Below are positions 2,145 to 57,951 of a stretch of DNA of 64,000 nucleotides, in pieces. Where the stretch lies: the NCBI GenBank assembly GCA_025517465.1, contig JAOPKE010000008.1:124001-188000 (forward strand), given 5' to 3'. The DNA comes from Halobacteria archaeon HArc-gm2 (GTDB lineage: Archaea > Halobacteriota > Halobacteria > Halobacteriales > Haloarculaceae). The notes beneath the pieces were generated by a model. The model saw nothing but the letters and a program-made list of their open reading frames with translations, ran no database searches and was not told the origin of the DNA. Within the stretch, counting starts at the first letter, position 1. Each line of letters opens with the position of its first letter. Position numbers and translations under genes: made by a program.

Positions 2145-2337
2145 ACGTCGAACTTCACTGCCGAATCAGTTAATTGGGAGGTAGCGATCCCGCCGAGCAG
2201 GAATGAGAGGAAAACGTAAACCGGGGACCCGCTGTCCGTTCGTCCGATCGACGTCACTCGGGTGCAATCTGCTCCAAACCGACGACAGACGGCCGGCCCC
2301 AGACACGGGGTCTCATAGTGGTGGTTGTACGCCCGTC

Positions 2338-2572
2338 CCGGCGTCCTGTCGAGCGCAGCGAGACAGGGCTCGACGGACGAGCAGCGCGAGTCCGTCGGCG
2401 TCCCGACGAGCACGGCGAGTCGGGGCTCAGCAGTCGAGCGCAGCGAGTCTGCTGGCGTCCGGCCGAACTGTGTGAGGCCGGACTCGATAGACGAACGGAG
2501 TGAGTCTATCGGCGTCCTGTCGAGCGCAGCGAGACAGGGCTCATCGGATGAGCAGCGCGAATCCGATGGCGT
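2338..2572. repeat. Array of eight short hairpins with variable stems (array 1)
   Basis: Eight successive inverted repeats, each with a stem of 4-7 bp and an 11-nt loop that begins and ends in GA, such as GAGCGCAGCGA or GAACGGAGTGA. Stem pairs differ from unit to unit yet remain complementary: CTGTC/GACAG, GACGGAC/GTCCGTC, CCCGAC/GTCGGG, AGCAG/CTGCT, GGCC/GGCC, GATAGAC/GTCTATC, ATCGGAT/ATCCGAT. Linkers alternate between GGCGTC-like and GCTC-like. Open frames running through the array encode DERSES-like peptides and are not taken as genes. The same family recurs in inverse orientation near 47.3 kb. Confidence 0.85.
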
Positions 2573-2623
2573 TCGACGTGGCGGGTGCCGTCGAACGTCG
2601 GTGAAAAGGTACAACCACCTCTA

Positions 2624-3079
2624 TCAATCGTTGGCAGGGACACCGGTGGCGTCGCCGATCTCGACCTCGAGCGGGTCGTCCGTCCAGGTGACGTCCAGCG
2701 AGCGGCGCGAGCAGTAGGGCGCCAGCGTCGCCCTGGAGACGACGCCGTGGGAGACGCCCCGGTGGTCGACGACGGGGAGGTGTTTGACACCGGCACGGCG
2801 CATCCGCTCCGCCGCTTCGCGGACGGTCGCCGAGGGCCGTATCGTCGTCACGGGGGCGCTCATACACCGGGCGACCACGCCGAGGTCGTCCGTCTCGGCG
2901 ACGAGCGCTACGACGTCGGATTCGGTGACGACGCCGACGACGGTGTCGTCCTCGTCACAGACGAGGAGGACCCGCACGGCCGGGTCGCGAAGGTGCTGGG
3001 CGGCGTCCGGGACCGGGGTCGAGGGCGAGACGACGGGTGCCTCGTGCATCGGGGTCGTTTCGACGGGGAGATCGAGCAT
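2624..3079 (-). CDS. CBS domain-containing protein
   Basis: A 151-residue protein starting at the ATG at 3079. Two CBS motifs are visible: residues about 10-65 (VVSPSTPVPDAAQHL to VVGVVTESDVVALV) and 70-125 (MSAPVTTIRPSATVREAAERM to LPVVDHRGVSHGVVSRATLA). Tandem CBS pairs bind adenosyl nucleotides and act as energy or ionic-strength sensors. There is no fused effector domain; the C-terminal 30 residues are acidic and contain one Cys. Partner and ligand are unknown. The gene stands alone. Confidence 0.9.
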   Translation of the reverse strand: MLDLPVETTPMHEAPVVSPSTPVPDAAQHLRDPAVRVLLVCDEDDTVVGVVTESDVVALVAETDDLGVVARCMSAPVTTIRPSATVREAAERMRRAGVKHLPVVDHRGVSHGVVSRATLAPYCSRRSLDVTWTDDPLEVEIGDATGVPAND

Positions 3080-12642: not shown

Positions 12643-13611
12643 CTATTCGGTCTCGTCGCCGTTCTCCCTACCGTCGTCATTCTCCGACTGCCCGGTGTCC
12701 CACCGGAGCGTGGCGACCGCCTCGCCGTCCGAGTCGTCGAGTTCGACCGTGACCGGCCGGTCCAGGCCGCGCGCCAGGGCGACGGCGACGGTCGAGACGA
12801 TCGGATGGTCGAAGCGGGCGATGGAGCCGTAGGCGCCGTCGGTGACCGCCAGCGTGAGGCGACCGCCGGCGGGGTCGAGGTCGGTCCGGAGGGCGCCGGC
12901 GACCTCGAACTGTTCGACGACGGCCTCGCGCACCTGGCCAACCAGTTCGGCGGGGTCGCTGGCGAGCGGGCCGCCCAGCGCGGCCTCGAACTCGCGGAAC
13001 AGCGTCTCGCCGGTGGGTTCGAGGGAGACACCCCGGGTCGCCGCGTCGCCGGAGACGACGAACAGCGACTCCAGCGCGTCGACGTCGGGGAGCGTCCACT
13101 TCTCTCGCTGGGGGACGTACAGGCGAACGCCGATAGCCTCACTCCGTTCGTCTATCGATCCCGTGGGAACGTACACCCGCTCCTCGGAGAGGCCGAGGAC
13201 GAGACAGAGGCGCTCCTGGTTCCGGGCCAGCGCCTCGTAGACGGCGTCGCCGACGTCGGCCGAGACGAAGCGCTCGGGCGTGACGAACCAGGTCAGCAGG
13301 GCCGCGAACAGCCCCGTCCCGCCCAGCGCCAGCAGGACGGTCCGCGTCTCGGGGAAGAGGACGCCGCCGGCCGTGGCGAGCGCCCCGAGGGCGGCGAAGC
13401 CCAGCGCCGTCCGCCGGTACTGGCTCCGGCGGGCGCGGACGTAGGACTCGCGAAGGCGGTCGGCCTCCGCTCGCTGGCGCTCCAGTTCGGCCAGCAGCGT
13501 CTCCCGGTCCGGTTCCTCGGACGGGGCGTCGTCGGCCGACGGCTCGTCGGCTGACGCTGGTGGCTCGTGGGGCTGGGCCTCGGGGTCGGTGGCGGGTGTC
13601 TCAGAACTCAT
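12643..13611 (-). CDS. Uncharacterised coiled-coil/membrane protein of the MoxR-DUF58 cluster
   Basis: A 322-residue protein starting at the ATG at 13611, overlapping the end of the upstream gene by 11 bases. Residues 1-40 are acidic and disordered. Residues 35-70 form a charged coiled coil (RETLLAELERQRAEADRLRE). Two helices lie at about 72-90 and 92-112, then a cytoplasmic alpha/beta domain. Around residues 152-161 it contains IDERSEAIGV, encoded by a copy of the hairpin repeat of the non-coding arrays at 13131-13157. No known domain was recognised; operon position links it to the DUF58/MoxR system. Confidence 0.75.
   Translation of the reverse strand: MSSETPATDPEAQPHEPPASADEPSADDAPSEEPDRETLLAELERQRAEADRLRESYVRARRSQYRRTALGFAALGALATAGGVLFPETRTVLLALGGTGLFAALLTWFVTPERFVSADVGDAVYEALARNQERLCLVLGLSEERVYVPTGSIDERSEAIGVRLYVPQREKWTLPDVDALESLFVVSGDAATRGVSLEPTGETLFREFEAALGGPLASDPAELVGQVREAVVEQFEVAGALRTDLDPAGGRLTLAVTDGAYGSIARFDHPIVSTVAVALARGLDRPVTVELDDSDGEAVATLRWDTGQSENDDGRENGDETE
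13131..13157. repeat. Hairpin repeat unit embedded in a coding sequence
   Basis: The sequence at 13127-13162 is almost identical to array units near 47.5 kb, such as the one at 47417-47441, including the core CACTCCGTTCGTCTATCGA and the flanking ACGCC linker. It retains the stem GATAG/CTATC with an 11-13-nt loop. It lies in frame inside the gene at 12643-13611. Confidence 0.8.
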
Positions 13612-46890: not shown

Positions 46891-47249
46891 TGGAGAGTCG
46901 CTCGTCGTCGCGGTCACGCTCGATGGTCGGTGACGGCCCTTCCGTTCCTCCCCTCCCCGGGCCACCGATTTCACCGGCGACGACCGACAACGCGCGTACG
47001 AAGTGCGTATGCGATACGAAGTGAAGGGGGCATGGCCTAGCTCTTTAGGTACCCCAGTCGGCAGCGGTCGGGACCGACCGCCAGCAGGCGACGATTCACC
47101 GTTCCTCGCACCGTACGCACTCGAAAATTACCGAGGACCCCGCCGGTTCAGCGACCAGGCCGGCCGCGCCACGGGCGGTCGGACGAACCCGGATCGTGGT
47201 GTCGGTTGTACGCCCGTACAGTCGTTCGACGGCACCGGTCACGTCGAAC
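46891..47249. other. Spacer between the bat-type regulator and hairpin array 2
   Basis: About 360 bases with no convincing gene. It must contain the promoter of the bat-type gene. Near 47032 GGCCTAG and GTACC tracts occur but no element was recognised. Confidence 0.35.
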
Positions 47250-47764
47250 ACCGGCAGACTCGCTGCACTCGTCTCCCGAGCCCCGACTCGCCATGCTCGT
47301 CGGGACGCCATCGGATTCGCGCTGCTCATCCGATGAGCCCTGTCTCGCTACGCTCGACAGGACGCCGATAGACTCACTCCGTTCGTCTATCGAGCCCTCT
47401 CGCTACGCTCGACAGGACGCCGATAGACTCACTCCGTTCGTCTATCGAGCCCACGCTCGCTTCGTTCGCGTGGACGCCCATAGACTCACTCCGCTCGTCT
47501 CCCGAGCCCCGACTCGCCATGCTCGTCGGGACGCCCATAGACTCACTCCGTTCGTCTATCGAGCCCCGACTCGCCATGCTCGTCGGGACGCCATCGGATT
47601 CGCGCTGCTCATCCGATGAGCCCTGTCTCGCTACGCTCGACAGGACGCCGATAGACTCACTCCGTTCGTCTATCGAGCCCACGCTCGCTTCGTTCGCGTG
47701 GACGCCCTGAGACTCCCTGCGCTCGTCTCCCGAGCCCCGACTCGCCATGCTCGTCGGGACGCCG
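47250..47764. repeat. Array of about eighteen short hairpins with variable stems (array 2)
   Basis: The same family as array 1 in inverse orientation. Stems include CCCGAC/GTCGGG, ATCGGAT/ATCCGAT, CCTGTC/GACAGG, GATAGAC/GTCTATC and CCACGC/GCGTGG around 11-nt loops such as TCGCTACGCTC or TCACTCCGTTC. Linkers alternate GAGC and GACGCC. Individual units recur several times in different order (for example the CCCGAC unit four times, the GATAGAC unit three times), so the array grows by duplication and shuffling. One unit near 47396 is truncated. The array ends about 25 bases before the HalX gene stop. Confidence 0.85.
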
Positions 47765-47787
47765 GTGAAAAGGGACAACCGACAGTA

Positions 47788-48372
47788 TCAGTCCCGGGAC
47801 AGCGCGACCTCGAAGGCGTCGCCGTCTTCCAGCGAGTCGCCGACGTCGTCGAGTTCCTCGCGAAGCCGGGCGAGTTGCTCCTCGACGGAGGCCAGTTCGT
47901 CGGCGGTCGCGTCAGTGCCCGTCACGAGTTCGGCGTAGCGCTCCGAGAGCGAGTAGTACGTCGCGAGCGTCCGGTCGTACCGGCCGCGGCGGTGGAGCCA
48001 GCGGACCGTGGTCCGGAGCGTCTGGTCGTCGATCGGGTTCTCGACGACCCCGTCACACCGGTCGCGGAGCGACTCGGCGACGGGCGCGTCGGCGATGGCC
48101 GCGACCTGAAAGCGACAGTCGCGCTCCGTGCCCGTCTCGACCAGGCGGTCGAGGGCGAACTCGTCGCTCGTCTCGTCGACGACGAGGACGGTGACGTTGC
48201 CGTCCAGGCTGGCGAGCGCGTCGGACTCGGAGTCGGCCGTCCGGACCGGGTAGTCCTGCCTGAGCACCGACGCCAGCCGCGCCCGCTCGGTCCCGTCGGT
48301 CACACACACCAGCACCGCGTCGTTCCTCGTACCGATACCGACTTCGGCGTCGTCTAGATATGTCCTGTCCAT
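47788..48372 (-). CDS. HalX-type response regulator with degenerate receiver
   Basis: A 194-residue protein starting at the ATG at 48372. Residues 18-125 resemble a receiver domain (AVLVCVTDGTERARLASVLRQDYPVRTADSESDALASL), with the phospho-acceptor Asp probably in VTVLVVDE. The conserved Lys-Pro is replaced by ENP (VVENPIDDQTLRTTV) and the acidic pair is reduced, so phosphorylation may be altered. Residues 130-194 form a HalX domain (YDRTLATYYSLSERYAELVTG with a coiled-coil tail). It is downstream of the DUF7504-like gene on the same strand. Confidence 0.85.
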   Translation of the reverse strand: MDRTYLDDAEVGIGTRNDAVLVCVTDGTERARLASVLRQDYPVRTADSESDALASLDGNVTVLVVDETSDEFALDRLVETGTERDCRFQVAAIADAPVAESLRDRCDGVVENPIDDQTLRTTVRWLHRRGRYDRTLATYYSLSERYAELVTGTDATADELASVEEQLARLREELDDVGDSLEDGDAFEVALSRD

Positions 48373-52205: not shown

Positions 52206-52312
52206 GTGCGGGGATGCGAGCGGCCCGGCTATGAAAGTTGGTGTGAGAGGCACTTCTCGGTCGGGTTGTCGGAGTGCGCGTTTCGGATGGAGATCGATCG
52301 GTTCGCTCACTA

Positions 52313-52513
52313 GGAGTCGGCGTCGATACAACAAACGCCTCGAAAGCCCTCGGCCCGCTCTCTGGAGTCGGCGTCGATACCGCAAACACCTCGAAAGCCC
52401 TCGGCCCGCTCTCTGGAGTCGGCGTCGATACCGCAAACACCTCGAAAGCCCTCGGCCCGCTCTCTGGAGTCGGCGTCGATACCGCAAACACCTCGAAAGC
52501 CCTCGGCCCGCTC
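52313..52513. repeat. Four tandem copies of a 51-bp unit at the end of foldback element A
   Basis: Copies begin at 52313, 52364, 52415 and 52466. The first is slightly diverged and the last runs into the unique arm. Each carries the element tip ACACCTCGAAAGCCCTCGG. A 51-bp period keeps long frames open, giving false ORFs on both strands. Confidence 0.92.
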
Positions 52514-52890
52514 GACTCGTGCGAACCCGCTGTGCGCGCTCGTTCCTCGCGTGCTTGCGGGTTCGGACTTCGCCGACCGTGCCTCGCCCTTTCAGTCCTC
52601 CAGGGGCAGCGTTGCTCGCGCCACGGAGGCGCTCGCGATTGAGTCCGCCACTCCTCCCCGAATTCGCGGCGTCCGCCGCGAATCACGCTTCCTTCCGCAA
52701 CCGCGCGGCGGTTGGCCGGGAGCGCGTTTCATCGCGCGACCAGGGGAAGGGCAGGGCTGCGGTGCCTGGAGGACTGAAAGGGCGAGGCGGGGTCCGGGAA
52801 CCCCGGACCTTCAAGCACCGCAGCGCAGCGAGGAGCGCAGGAGGTCCGCGGGACCGGAGCTCGCCGAGGGCTTTCGAGGTGTTGGTGGTC
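52313..52890. repeat. Foldback (paired-arm) non-coding element A
   Basis: Two imperfect inverted arms of about 110 bp flank a core. Both arms start at the tip with CGAAAGCCCTCGG and end inside with CCTCGCCCTTTCAGTCCTCC. The core includes CCCCGAATTCGCGGCG at about 52656. The left tip is reiterated four times with a 51-bp period. A second copy in opposite orientation lies at 57340-57951. No open frame in it looks like a protein. The stretch from 52891 to 53214 between the element and the MFS gene holds no recognised feature. Confidence 0.82.
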
Positions 52891-55491: not shown

Positions 55492-55662
55492 GGCCAATCT
55501 TTAAATTAGGCTGTATTTTCAGATTCCCACCGGCTGACTTACATTGTGGTATCTTATCTGACGGTTTGGAGAATCCCGACACAAGGCCGTCTCTACCTTT
55601 CTCCTGTACTACAACCGATAAGCATTGGATCCTATTGTCTGGGAAATTATACGTCGAGTAAA

Positions 55663-55710
55663 GCACGATGGGACTGAGCGAAACCGGAGGTTTCGCGAAG
55701 GTCATCGTGC
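55663..55710. repeat. Nested perfect hairpin beside tRNA-Arg
   Basis: Outer stem GCACGATG (55663-55670) pairs with CATCGTGC (55703-55710), and inner stem GCGAAACC (55678-55685) pairs with GGTTTCGC (55689-55696) around a GGA loop. The left outer arm plus three bases (GCACGATGGGA) also matches the tRNA 3-prime end at 55738-55748. It could be a recombination remnant or an RNA terminator-like structure. Confidence 0.7.
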
Positions 55711-55734
55711 ACGCGAACGAGCGCAGCGAGTGAG

Positions 55735-55809
55735 CGGGCACGATGGGATTCGAACCCACGGCCGTCGGATTAGAAGTCCGACGCTCTATCCAGACTGAGC
55801 TACGTGCCC
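55735..55809 (-). tRNA. tRNA-Arg (anticodon TCT)
   Basis: A 75-nt cloverleaf on the minus strand. The acceptor stem is GGGCACG/CGTGCCC with discriminator G, the D stem GCTC/GAGC, the anticodon stem TCGGA/TCCGA with loop CTTCTAA, and the T arm GTGGG-TTCGAAT-CCCAT. The anticodon at loop positions 3-5 is TCT, decoding AGA (and AGG by wobble). No intron and no encoded CCA. An AT-rich gene and a partial copy of its 3-prime end lie on the 3-prime side. Confidence 0.97.
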
Positions 55810-55867
55810 TCGCCGGTTTGTACCCGGGCCCGTGCAAAAAGCAGTGTGGATCCGTCGGTGGGGCGCG

Positions 55868-57339: not shown

Positions 57340-57951
57340 AACAGGGGAAAGCCCTTGGCGCGCTCGCCTCGTGCGACTCGCTGCGCTCCTCACTTCGTTG
57401 CGGTGCTTACGTCGTCGGACGTCGGCGACCGCACCTCGCCCTTTCAGTCCACCGTCAGAGCAAGCTCTGACGAGCCCTGCCTCGCTACGCTCGGCAGGAC
57501 CCCAGGCCAGCACCGCAGCCCTGCCCTTCCCCTTCCACGCGAGCGAAGCGAGTGTGGGCTCGAAAGACGAGGTGTGCCGAGTCTTTCGGTGGGTCGCGCG
57601 ATAAAACGCGCTCTCACGGCTGCGCCGTTCGAGCAAACGCGGTCGCTTCGCGCCCGCTCCGCTCCCGGCCGACCGCCGCGCGGTTGCGGGAGGAAGCGTG
57701 ATTCGCGGCGGACGCCGCGAATTCGGGGAGGAGTGGCGGTTCAATCGCGAGCGCCTCCGTGGTGCGAGCAATGCGTATTCCTGGCGGATGAAAGGGCGAG
57801 GCGTGGTCGGGGAAGCCGGGACCCTCAAGCACCGGAGCGAAGCGAGGAGCGCAGAGTGGTCCCCGCGACCCGAGCACGTCGAGGGCTTTCCTTTGTTGGT
57901 GACGTCGCCGAGCACTGCTAGCGAGCGGGCCGAGGGCTTTCCTTTGTTCGC
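57340..57951. repeat. Foldback (paired-arm) non-coding element B, with inserted hairpins
   Basis: Homologous to element A in opposite orientation. The left arm begins GGGGAAAGCCCTTGGC and ends CCTCGCCCTTTCAGTCC. The right arm mirrors it and its tip CGAGGGCTTTCCTTTG is present twice, at 57880 and 57931, again with a 51-bp period. The core around 57672-57741 matches that of A. Relative to A, element B has three extra blocks at about 57454-57501, 57533-57589 and 57613-57663, containing hairpins. The remaining stretch to the DUF373 stop (57952-58011) shows nothing. Confidence 0.82.

Follow-up and report, generated by a model that had tools for sequence, protein, structure and literature searches.

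Three extra blocks in one copy of a foldback element

The 64,000-nt window analysed here, part of one contig of the archaeal genome G000 (genus Halomicrobium; 18 contigs, 4.25 Mb), contains two copies of a foldback element, A (L043) and B, as well as two tandem arrays of short hairpins (Table 1). An earlier note on the window had proposed that A and B align through the same blocks, that B has three extra blocks, and that the loops of blocks 1 and 2 match the arrays. Alignment of the two copies bore out both the shared blocks and the three extra ones, which have sharp edges, block 2 being slightly longer than first described. A covariance model (R1), trained on 57-nt units with GGYG at both ends, found both arrays and both blocks, which lay outside its training set. 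We refer to the double-hairpin family containing blocks 1 and 2 as DH1. These two blocks are insertions of this mobile double hairpin; block 3 is unrelated to it, and its mobility is unproven.

Half-sites of the foldback numbered 163 in G000 and 145 in G006, a sister species used for orthologous comparison (flank identity mostly 87-96%), and 0-1 in the reversed control; the family therefore comprises about 80 copies in G000 and about 72 in G006. We compared 96 distinct copies in which both half-sites are present (65 from G000, 30 from G006 and one from G004). Alignment of filled with empty copies showed that the inserts are discrete, with edges fixed for each, and the majority of the 96 copies are without the extra blocks of B, with exact junctions. 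A typical empty core measures 187-240 nt. The G006 ortholog of copy A (L115) is also empty, and that of copy B (L114) contains other modules and is inverted relative to its flanks.

The filled site of block 1 reads TCCACC/GTCAGAG...GGACCCC/AGG (slashes mark the junctions) against TCCACC/AGG in the empty form, and its TCC-hairpin A-GGGCTC-hairpin B is flanked by CACC (57450-57453, equal to GGTG) and CCCC (57500-57503, equal to GGGG). Of the 65 G000 copies, 10 have this site occupied, with sequences of four different kinds (L010, L014, L018, L020, L025, L032, L044, L082, L099 and L102). Block 2 is bounded as CCCCT/TCCACGCG...TTTCGGTG/GGTCG, the empty form being CCCCT/GGTCG; it fills the site in 11 foldback copies of two species, including the truncated L029 and one from G006, and all 58 nt are identical among them. 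Block 3 was seen in copy B and at the same site in one G006 copy (L120). Its exact edge is ambiguous because CGCTC is present at both ends, and R1 gave no match to it.

Other double-hairpin module families, each with its own sites, were also observed (GTGGTTCGA..., TTGAGCCGAGCACGG... and GGCGCCGACCGGAGG...; L018, L025, L031, L032, L036, L047, L114, L123 and L154). The outer end of copy A is tandemly repeated about four times with a 51-nt period (52304-52513), and the number of units varies among other copies.

Fold and abundance of the DH1 unit

Blocks 1 and 2 follow the same plan as the window arrays, in which a target GGYG comes first and then TCC-hairpin A-GGGCTC-hairpin B-GGYG. The commonest unit lengths are 57 and 51 nt, each divisible by three, and GGYGTCC is invariant or nearly so. 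Among 43 diverse 57-nt units, each hairpin has the layout stem-C-GA-2 bp-3 nt-2 bp-GA-G-stem; 92.7% of the stem cells pair, and both sides have changed in 158 cells, against 50 in shuffles. Mispairs are equally rare in the two classes (GT 15, AC 13 of 645 pair cells), and this covariation with no G-U preference argues for a structure of DNA, not of RNA. In DNA, GNA triloops are unusually stable, as are tandem G.A pairs beside C-G. Folding blocks 1 and 2 as DNA returned the same two-hairpin structure, with single-stranded DNA folding z values of -2.8 and -2.3, respectively (block 3, -0.45).

These data also bear on a reading in which the foldback is a structured non-coding RNA and selection on the RNA fold maintains its hairpin modules as expansion segments. 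The strong compensatory change in DH1 would agree with it, as would the foldback core stems, variable yet nearly perfectly paired, and the conserved unpaired linkers between them (CAGCCCTGCCCTTCCCC, CCGGGGAGG). However, there is no preference for G-U over A-C in the stems of DH1 (15 versus 13) or of the foldback (H2, 2 versus 5; H4, 2 versus 0), and the modules lie in either orientation and within protein genes. The RNA element, which we judge improbable, was rejected on the lack of a G-U preference and on a comparison with Rfam, in which the window matched no family except one tRNA.

R1 identified 137 units in G000, 29 of them in foldbacks and 108 at 67 other loci. Among 59 related genomes scanned with the model, whose E-values are rough, 51 gave matches, with about 90 each in G000, G004 and G006. 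The exact DH1 pattern occurred in 67 stretches of named genomes, all from Halobacteria except one contig of a Salinivenus metagenome-assembled genome, and had no match in viral contigs. DH1 is spread across the class Halobacteria; our literature search, covering few subscription journals, found no published report of the family in haloarchaea. The match in Salinivenus, which is bacterial (L201), may reflect transfer or a binning error.

Filled and empty sites outside the foldback

The foldback is one DH1 host among several. A carrier element with terminal inverted repeats (TIRs) has an empty form of about 95 bp reading GTACC-GGCG-TTCGACG; G000 has 21 of these and G006 has 8, allowing up to 3 mismatches. 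Filled carriers hold from 1 to about 9 DH1 units, and both window arrays are among them. The empty state at the carrier locus L263/L136 was not clean on comparison. In one orthologous array, G000 and G006 differ by exactly one 57-nt unit, the phase being shifted to the repeated GGGCTC; gain and loss are equally possible there.

A histidine kinase carries one unit in G000, two in G004 and three in G006, in frame and inside the ATPase domain, and its paralogs with none read ERH/GGDI (DNA CGCCAC/GGCGGCGAC). In G004 and G006 the reading frame of the kinase is uninterrupted, with the HATPase_c match divided into two stretches. Units are likewise read through in frame in a methyltransferase (L181), an acyl-CoA synthetase-like gene (L198) and the N-terminal part of a tryptophanyl-tRNA synthetase-like open reading frame (ORF; L174), for which the comparison covered filled forms.

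In G000 and H. katesii, a copy of the sucD 3' end with one DH1 unit at GGCG adjoins intact sucD, and in G003 the two partial copies of an epimerase-type gene, arranged in tandem, have a unit at GGCA. In tRNA clusters of Halorientalis regularis and Haloarcula argentinensis, DH1 splits three tRNA genes at GAGCACC, where the intact counterparts read on.

The reverse polarity, in which the filled state is ancestral and A and other copies lost their blocks, could claim the one-unit array difference as a loss. Yet it is not A alone that is empty, nor are there ragged deletion ends, as the earlier note had considered: most copies in two species share the empty state and one identical clean junction, and it is the normal gene that represents the empty form at the kinase, tRNA and sucD sites. 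That A lost its blocks by deletion was rejected on the shared clean junction of these copies, and loss as an account of the family is very hard to credit.

Intact genes (sucD, epimerase-type) lie beside partial copies of their own ends with DH1 in three genomes (L150, L200 and L293). DH1 in the three tRNA genes sits between the D stem and the anticodon stem (L179, 3180-3400; L212, 240-1060). In the window, at 55660-55810, a second copy of part of the tRNA gene's end (GCACGATGGGA) lies about 75 nt from the first, and hairpin sequences separate the two.

Table 1. Foldback copies, inserted blocks and DH1 units located in the window
Feature	Position	Strand	Remarks
DH1 tandem array with GGCG linkers	2340-2571	+	R1 match
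Carrier TIR element (ATAGTGGTGGTTGTA...TACAACCACCTCTAT) filled with DH1 array	2315-2624	+	Empty carriers elsewhere
Hairpin-B half of DH1 unit	13128-13177	-	In frame in ORF 12643-13611 (minus); encodes GSIDERSEAIG
Tandem array of about nine DH1 units	47249-47763	-	R1 match; second filled carrier about 47197-47788
Foldback copy A (L043)	52313-52890	-	No modules; core 52583-52786 (204 nt)
Foldback copy B	57340-57951	+	Core 57435-57800 (366 nt) between conserved CTCGCCCTTTCA...TGAAAGGGCGAG marks
Block 1	57454-57503	-	Antisense DH1 unit; exact junction versus empty copies; R1 match 57450-57503, E 4.2e-10
Block 2	57534-57591	+	DH1 unit, 58 nt; R1 match 57530-57591, E 2.2e-10
Block 3	51 nt within 57609-57664	+	Hairpin-bearing insert flanked by CGCTC; not DH1

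Exchange among foldback copies

Nineteen orthologous foldback pairs of G000 and G006 have conserved positions. At 79-93% identity, their cores resemble each other no more than random paralogs do, the ranks of ortholog core similarity spanning 1 to 65 of 65. Linkage equilibrium holds among the alleles of hairpins H2, H4 and H5 (p 0.47, 0.72 and 0.15). Since the cores have been reshuffled to the paralog level and the alleles are unlinked, short pieces pass between foldback copies, and a filled state can be transferred in this way. The modules of orthologous copies differ at several loci: L128 is empty and L025 has blocks 1 and 2, L140 is empty and L009 has block 2, and L135 has three units where L033 is empty.

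It might be supposed that each module entered the foldback family once and that the state of a single locus now changes only by conversion or recombination among the roughly 80 copies. The divergence of orthologous cores, the unlinked alleles and the identity of block 2 in its 11 copies all suit this account, but it leaves unexplained the DH1 units at 67 non-foldback loci and in tRNA and kinase genes, as well as the presence of four distinct DH1 sequences where block 1 is inserted, and block 2 lies 5 nt from several different H2 hairpins. We therefore consider a single entry rather doubtful.

Target site and proposed movement

GGYG is found once in empty sites and twice in filled sites. The right tetramer stays GGTG even though the left one is CCCT at block 2 and GGCA in the epimerase copies, which fits a GGYG end borne by the element, and such an end is favoured over a 4-bp target duplication. 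In the mechanism proposed here, DH1 would insert just 3' of a target, usually GGYG; the target tetranucleotide would remain outside on the left and DH1's own GGYG would close the right end, so that a unit ends up with GGYG on either side and head-to-tail stacking becomes possible. By analogy with minimal IS200/IS605 or PATE elements, DH1 may move as folded single-stranded DNA through the action of a trans-acting enzyme, and hairpin exchange by conversion within the foldback family would pass filled states on.

Modules might instead arise locally by hairpin-templated replication errors (template switching), with no mobile element involved. Perfect stems that lack a wobble bias would fit palindrome correction, and several foldbacks contain internal tandem duplications of hairpin blocks (L016, L018, L020, L032, L046, L079 and L104). 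Nevertheless, a two-hairpin layout shared throughout the class, with conserved TCC, GGGCTC and GGYG, needs a common source, as do the recurrent GGYG targets, and template switching is in our judgement quite improbable.

The idea of the earlier note that the hairpins are small insertable elements stands for blocks 1 and 2, for which most copies are empty, junctions are identical, orthologs differ and unrelated sites are occupied, but for block 3 the evidence of mobility amounts to one other copy, at the same site. Its suggestion of a Y1 transposase of the type associated with repetitive extragenic palindromes (REPs) led to no link with the modules. Y1 genes were present in six of the seven genomes of the genus that were scanned, and 14 Y1 loci of the genus were compared; G000 has one Y1 gene, within an IS605-type element (L049) whose ends differ from DH1, and at one of the 14 loci DH1 lies about 1 kb away, on one side only. 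A Y1/REP-type transposase as DH1 neighbour was rejected, since the sole G000 gene has other ends and none of the 14 loci is DH1-flanked. As an aside, a Y1 transposase gene of G003 appears to contain, close to the start, a pair of GAA-loop hairpins in frame (L293, 1480-1540).

DH1 has exact edges, covarying stems and in-frame tolerance in the kinase, and its filled sites have empty counterparts in at least six kinds of host sequence unrelated to one another. We estimate with a probability of about 0.78 that blocks 1 and 2 represent a mobile DNA element with two hairpins which inserts 3' of a usual GGYG, conversion spreading the filled states in foldbacks. Several points weigh against this. No transposase gene flanked by DH1 was found, 13 of the 14 Y1 loci of the genus being without DH1 nearby, and the one genome of the genus with no Y1 match still has 11 DH1 matches. 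Hairpin alleles reassort freely, so conversion explains part of the presence and absence of modules in foldbacks. The tetramers on the left and right match more often than expected by chance (Fisher p 0.015), which could mean a true 4-bp target duplication, and the target rule is partly ascertained, as many DH1 sites were found with a GGYG-containing pattern; the binomial figure for the target is biased for that reason and carries no weight here. Finally, the mobility of DH1 is read from compared sequences, not from insertions watched in real time.

Comparison with known systems

Protein-coding palindromes are best known from Rickettsia. Beyond the reading given above for blocks 1 and 2, we raise tentatively, as a possibility at somewhat short of even odds, that DH1 is a class-wide archaeal counterpart of such protein-invading palindromes: a minimal element of two hairpins and about 57 nt (19 codons) that an enzyme would move in the form of folded single-stranded DNA. 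Its own GGYG end would be the next target, and it would thereby build arrays, remodel proteins in 19-residue steps and invade tRNA genes. The roughly 137 recognisable units of a single archaeal genome, the filled and empty sites in different kinds of host, and the range from none to three units in one kinase make the mobility and mechanism of such palindromes testable in harmless, genetically tractable archaea. The fold is constant while the stems vary, and this gives a way in to the question of which enzyme recognises the hairpins. The family also suggests that recurrent haloarchaeal peptides like GVxxSExxxGSxDERSES are insertions and not functional motifs.

Rickettsia palindromic elements (RPEs) are small hairpin-forming repeats that occur between genes and in frame in unrelated protein genes (PMC10969869). 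DH1 likewise lies in frame in unrelated protein genes (the kinase in three species, with empty paralogs, and L181 and L198). Compared by size and plan, however, RPEs are single palindromes of about 100-150 bp, whereas DH1 measures 57 or 51 nt and has two hairpins; DH1 is also archaeal, has GGYG on both sides, forms head-to-tail arrays and is found in tRNA genes and other repeats.

The PATEs of Haloquadratum, which include 52-bp terminal-only forms, are non-coding and have near-terminal palindromes (PMC3119063). DH1 shares with them its haloarchaeal hosts, a length of about 50 bp that is too short to code, two near-terminal palindromes and the lack of terminal inverted repeats. Unlike PATEs, DH1 forms head-to-tail arrays and enters reading frames and tRNA genes, and, whereas PATE palindromes are related to those of IS605-type transposons, its sequence has no likeness to the IS605-type ends of G000, within the one genus checked. 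PATEs make no target duplication; on this point the right-hand GGTG of block 2 and of the epimerase copies and the tetramer association of DH1 point in opposite directions. SMR-A and SMR-B of Haloquadratum are about 80-110 bp long and more than 95% identical, with prominent inverted terminal repeats; they insert into palindromes of larger elements, and their movement has been called enigmatic (PMC3119063). DH1 is similarly a small haloarchaeal repeat found inside larger palindromic elements, but it is shorter, has no prominent inverted terminal repeats and has widely varying stems. SMR-A prefers palindromes as insertion sites; of the 137 DH1 units, 29 are in foldbacks and others in the TIR carrier, genes and tRNAs.

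IS200/IS605 elements have the target outside on the left, a hairpin near each end and the cleavage tetranucleotide on the right. In this layout DH1 would resemble a minimal element of the group, although a DH1-linked transposase gene was not found in the genus, and it differs from a classical miniature inverted-repeat transposable element in having no inverted terminal repeat. CGTC-tagged REPs, described from bacteria, are single hairpins of 8-9 bp with loops of 4-5 nt and mostly CCA tails; they have no dedicated transposase and lie sometimes inside genes, and two RPE families belong to them (PMC3733652). DH1 shares the missing transposase and has a CGTC or TGTC tag at one end (GG-CGTC-C) but is distinguished from these REPs by two hairpins, GA/GA bulges, a 3-nt loop, a GGYG end and no CCA tail. 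We class DH1 as a variant of the small palindromic mobile repeats that falls outside the RPEs, SMRs and CGTC-tagged REPs.
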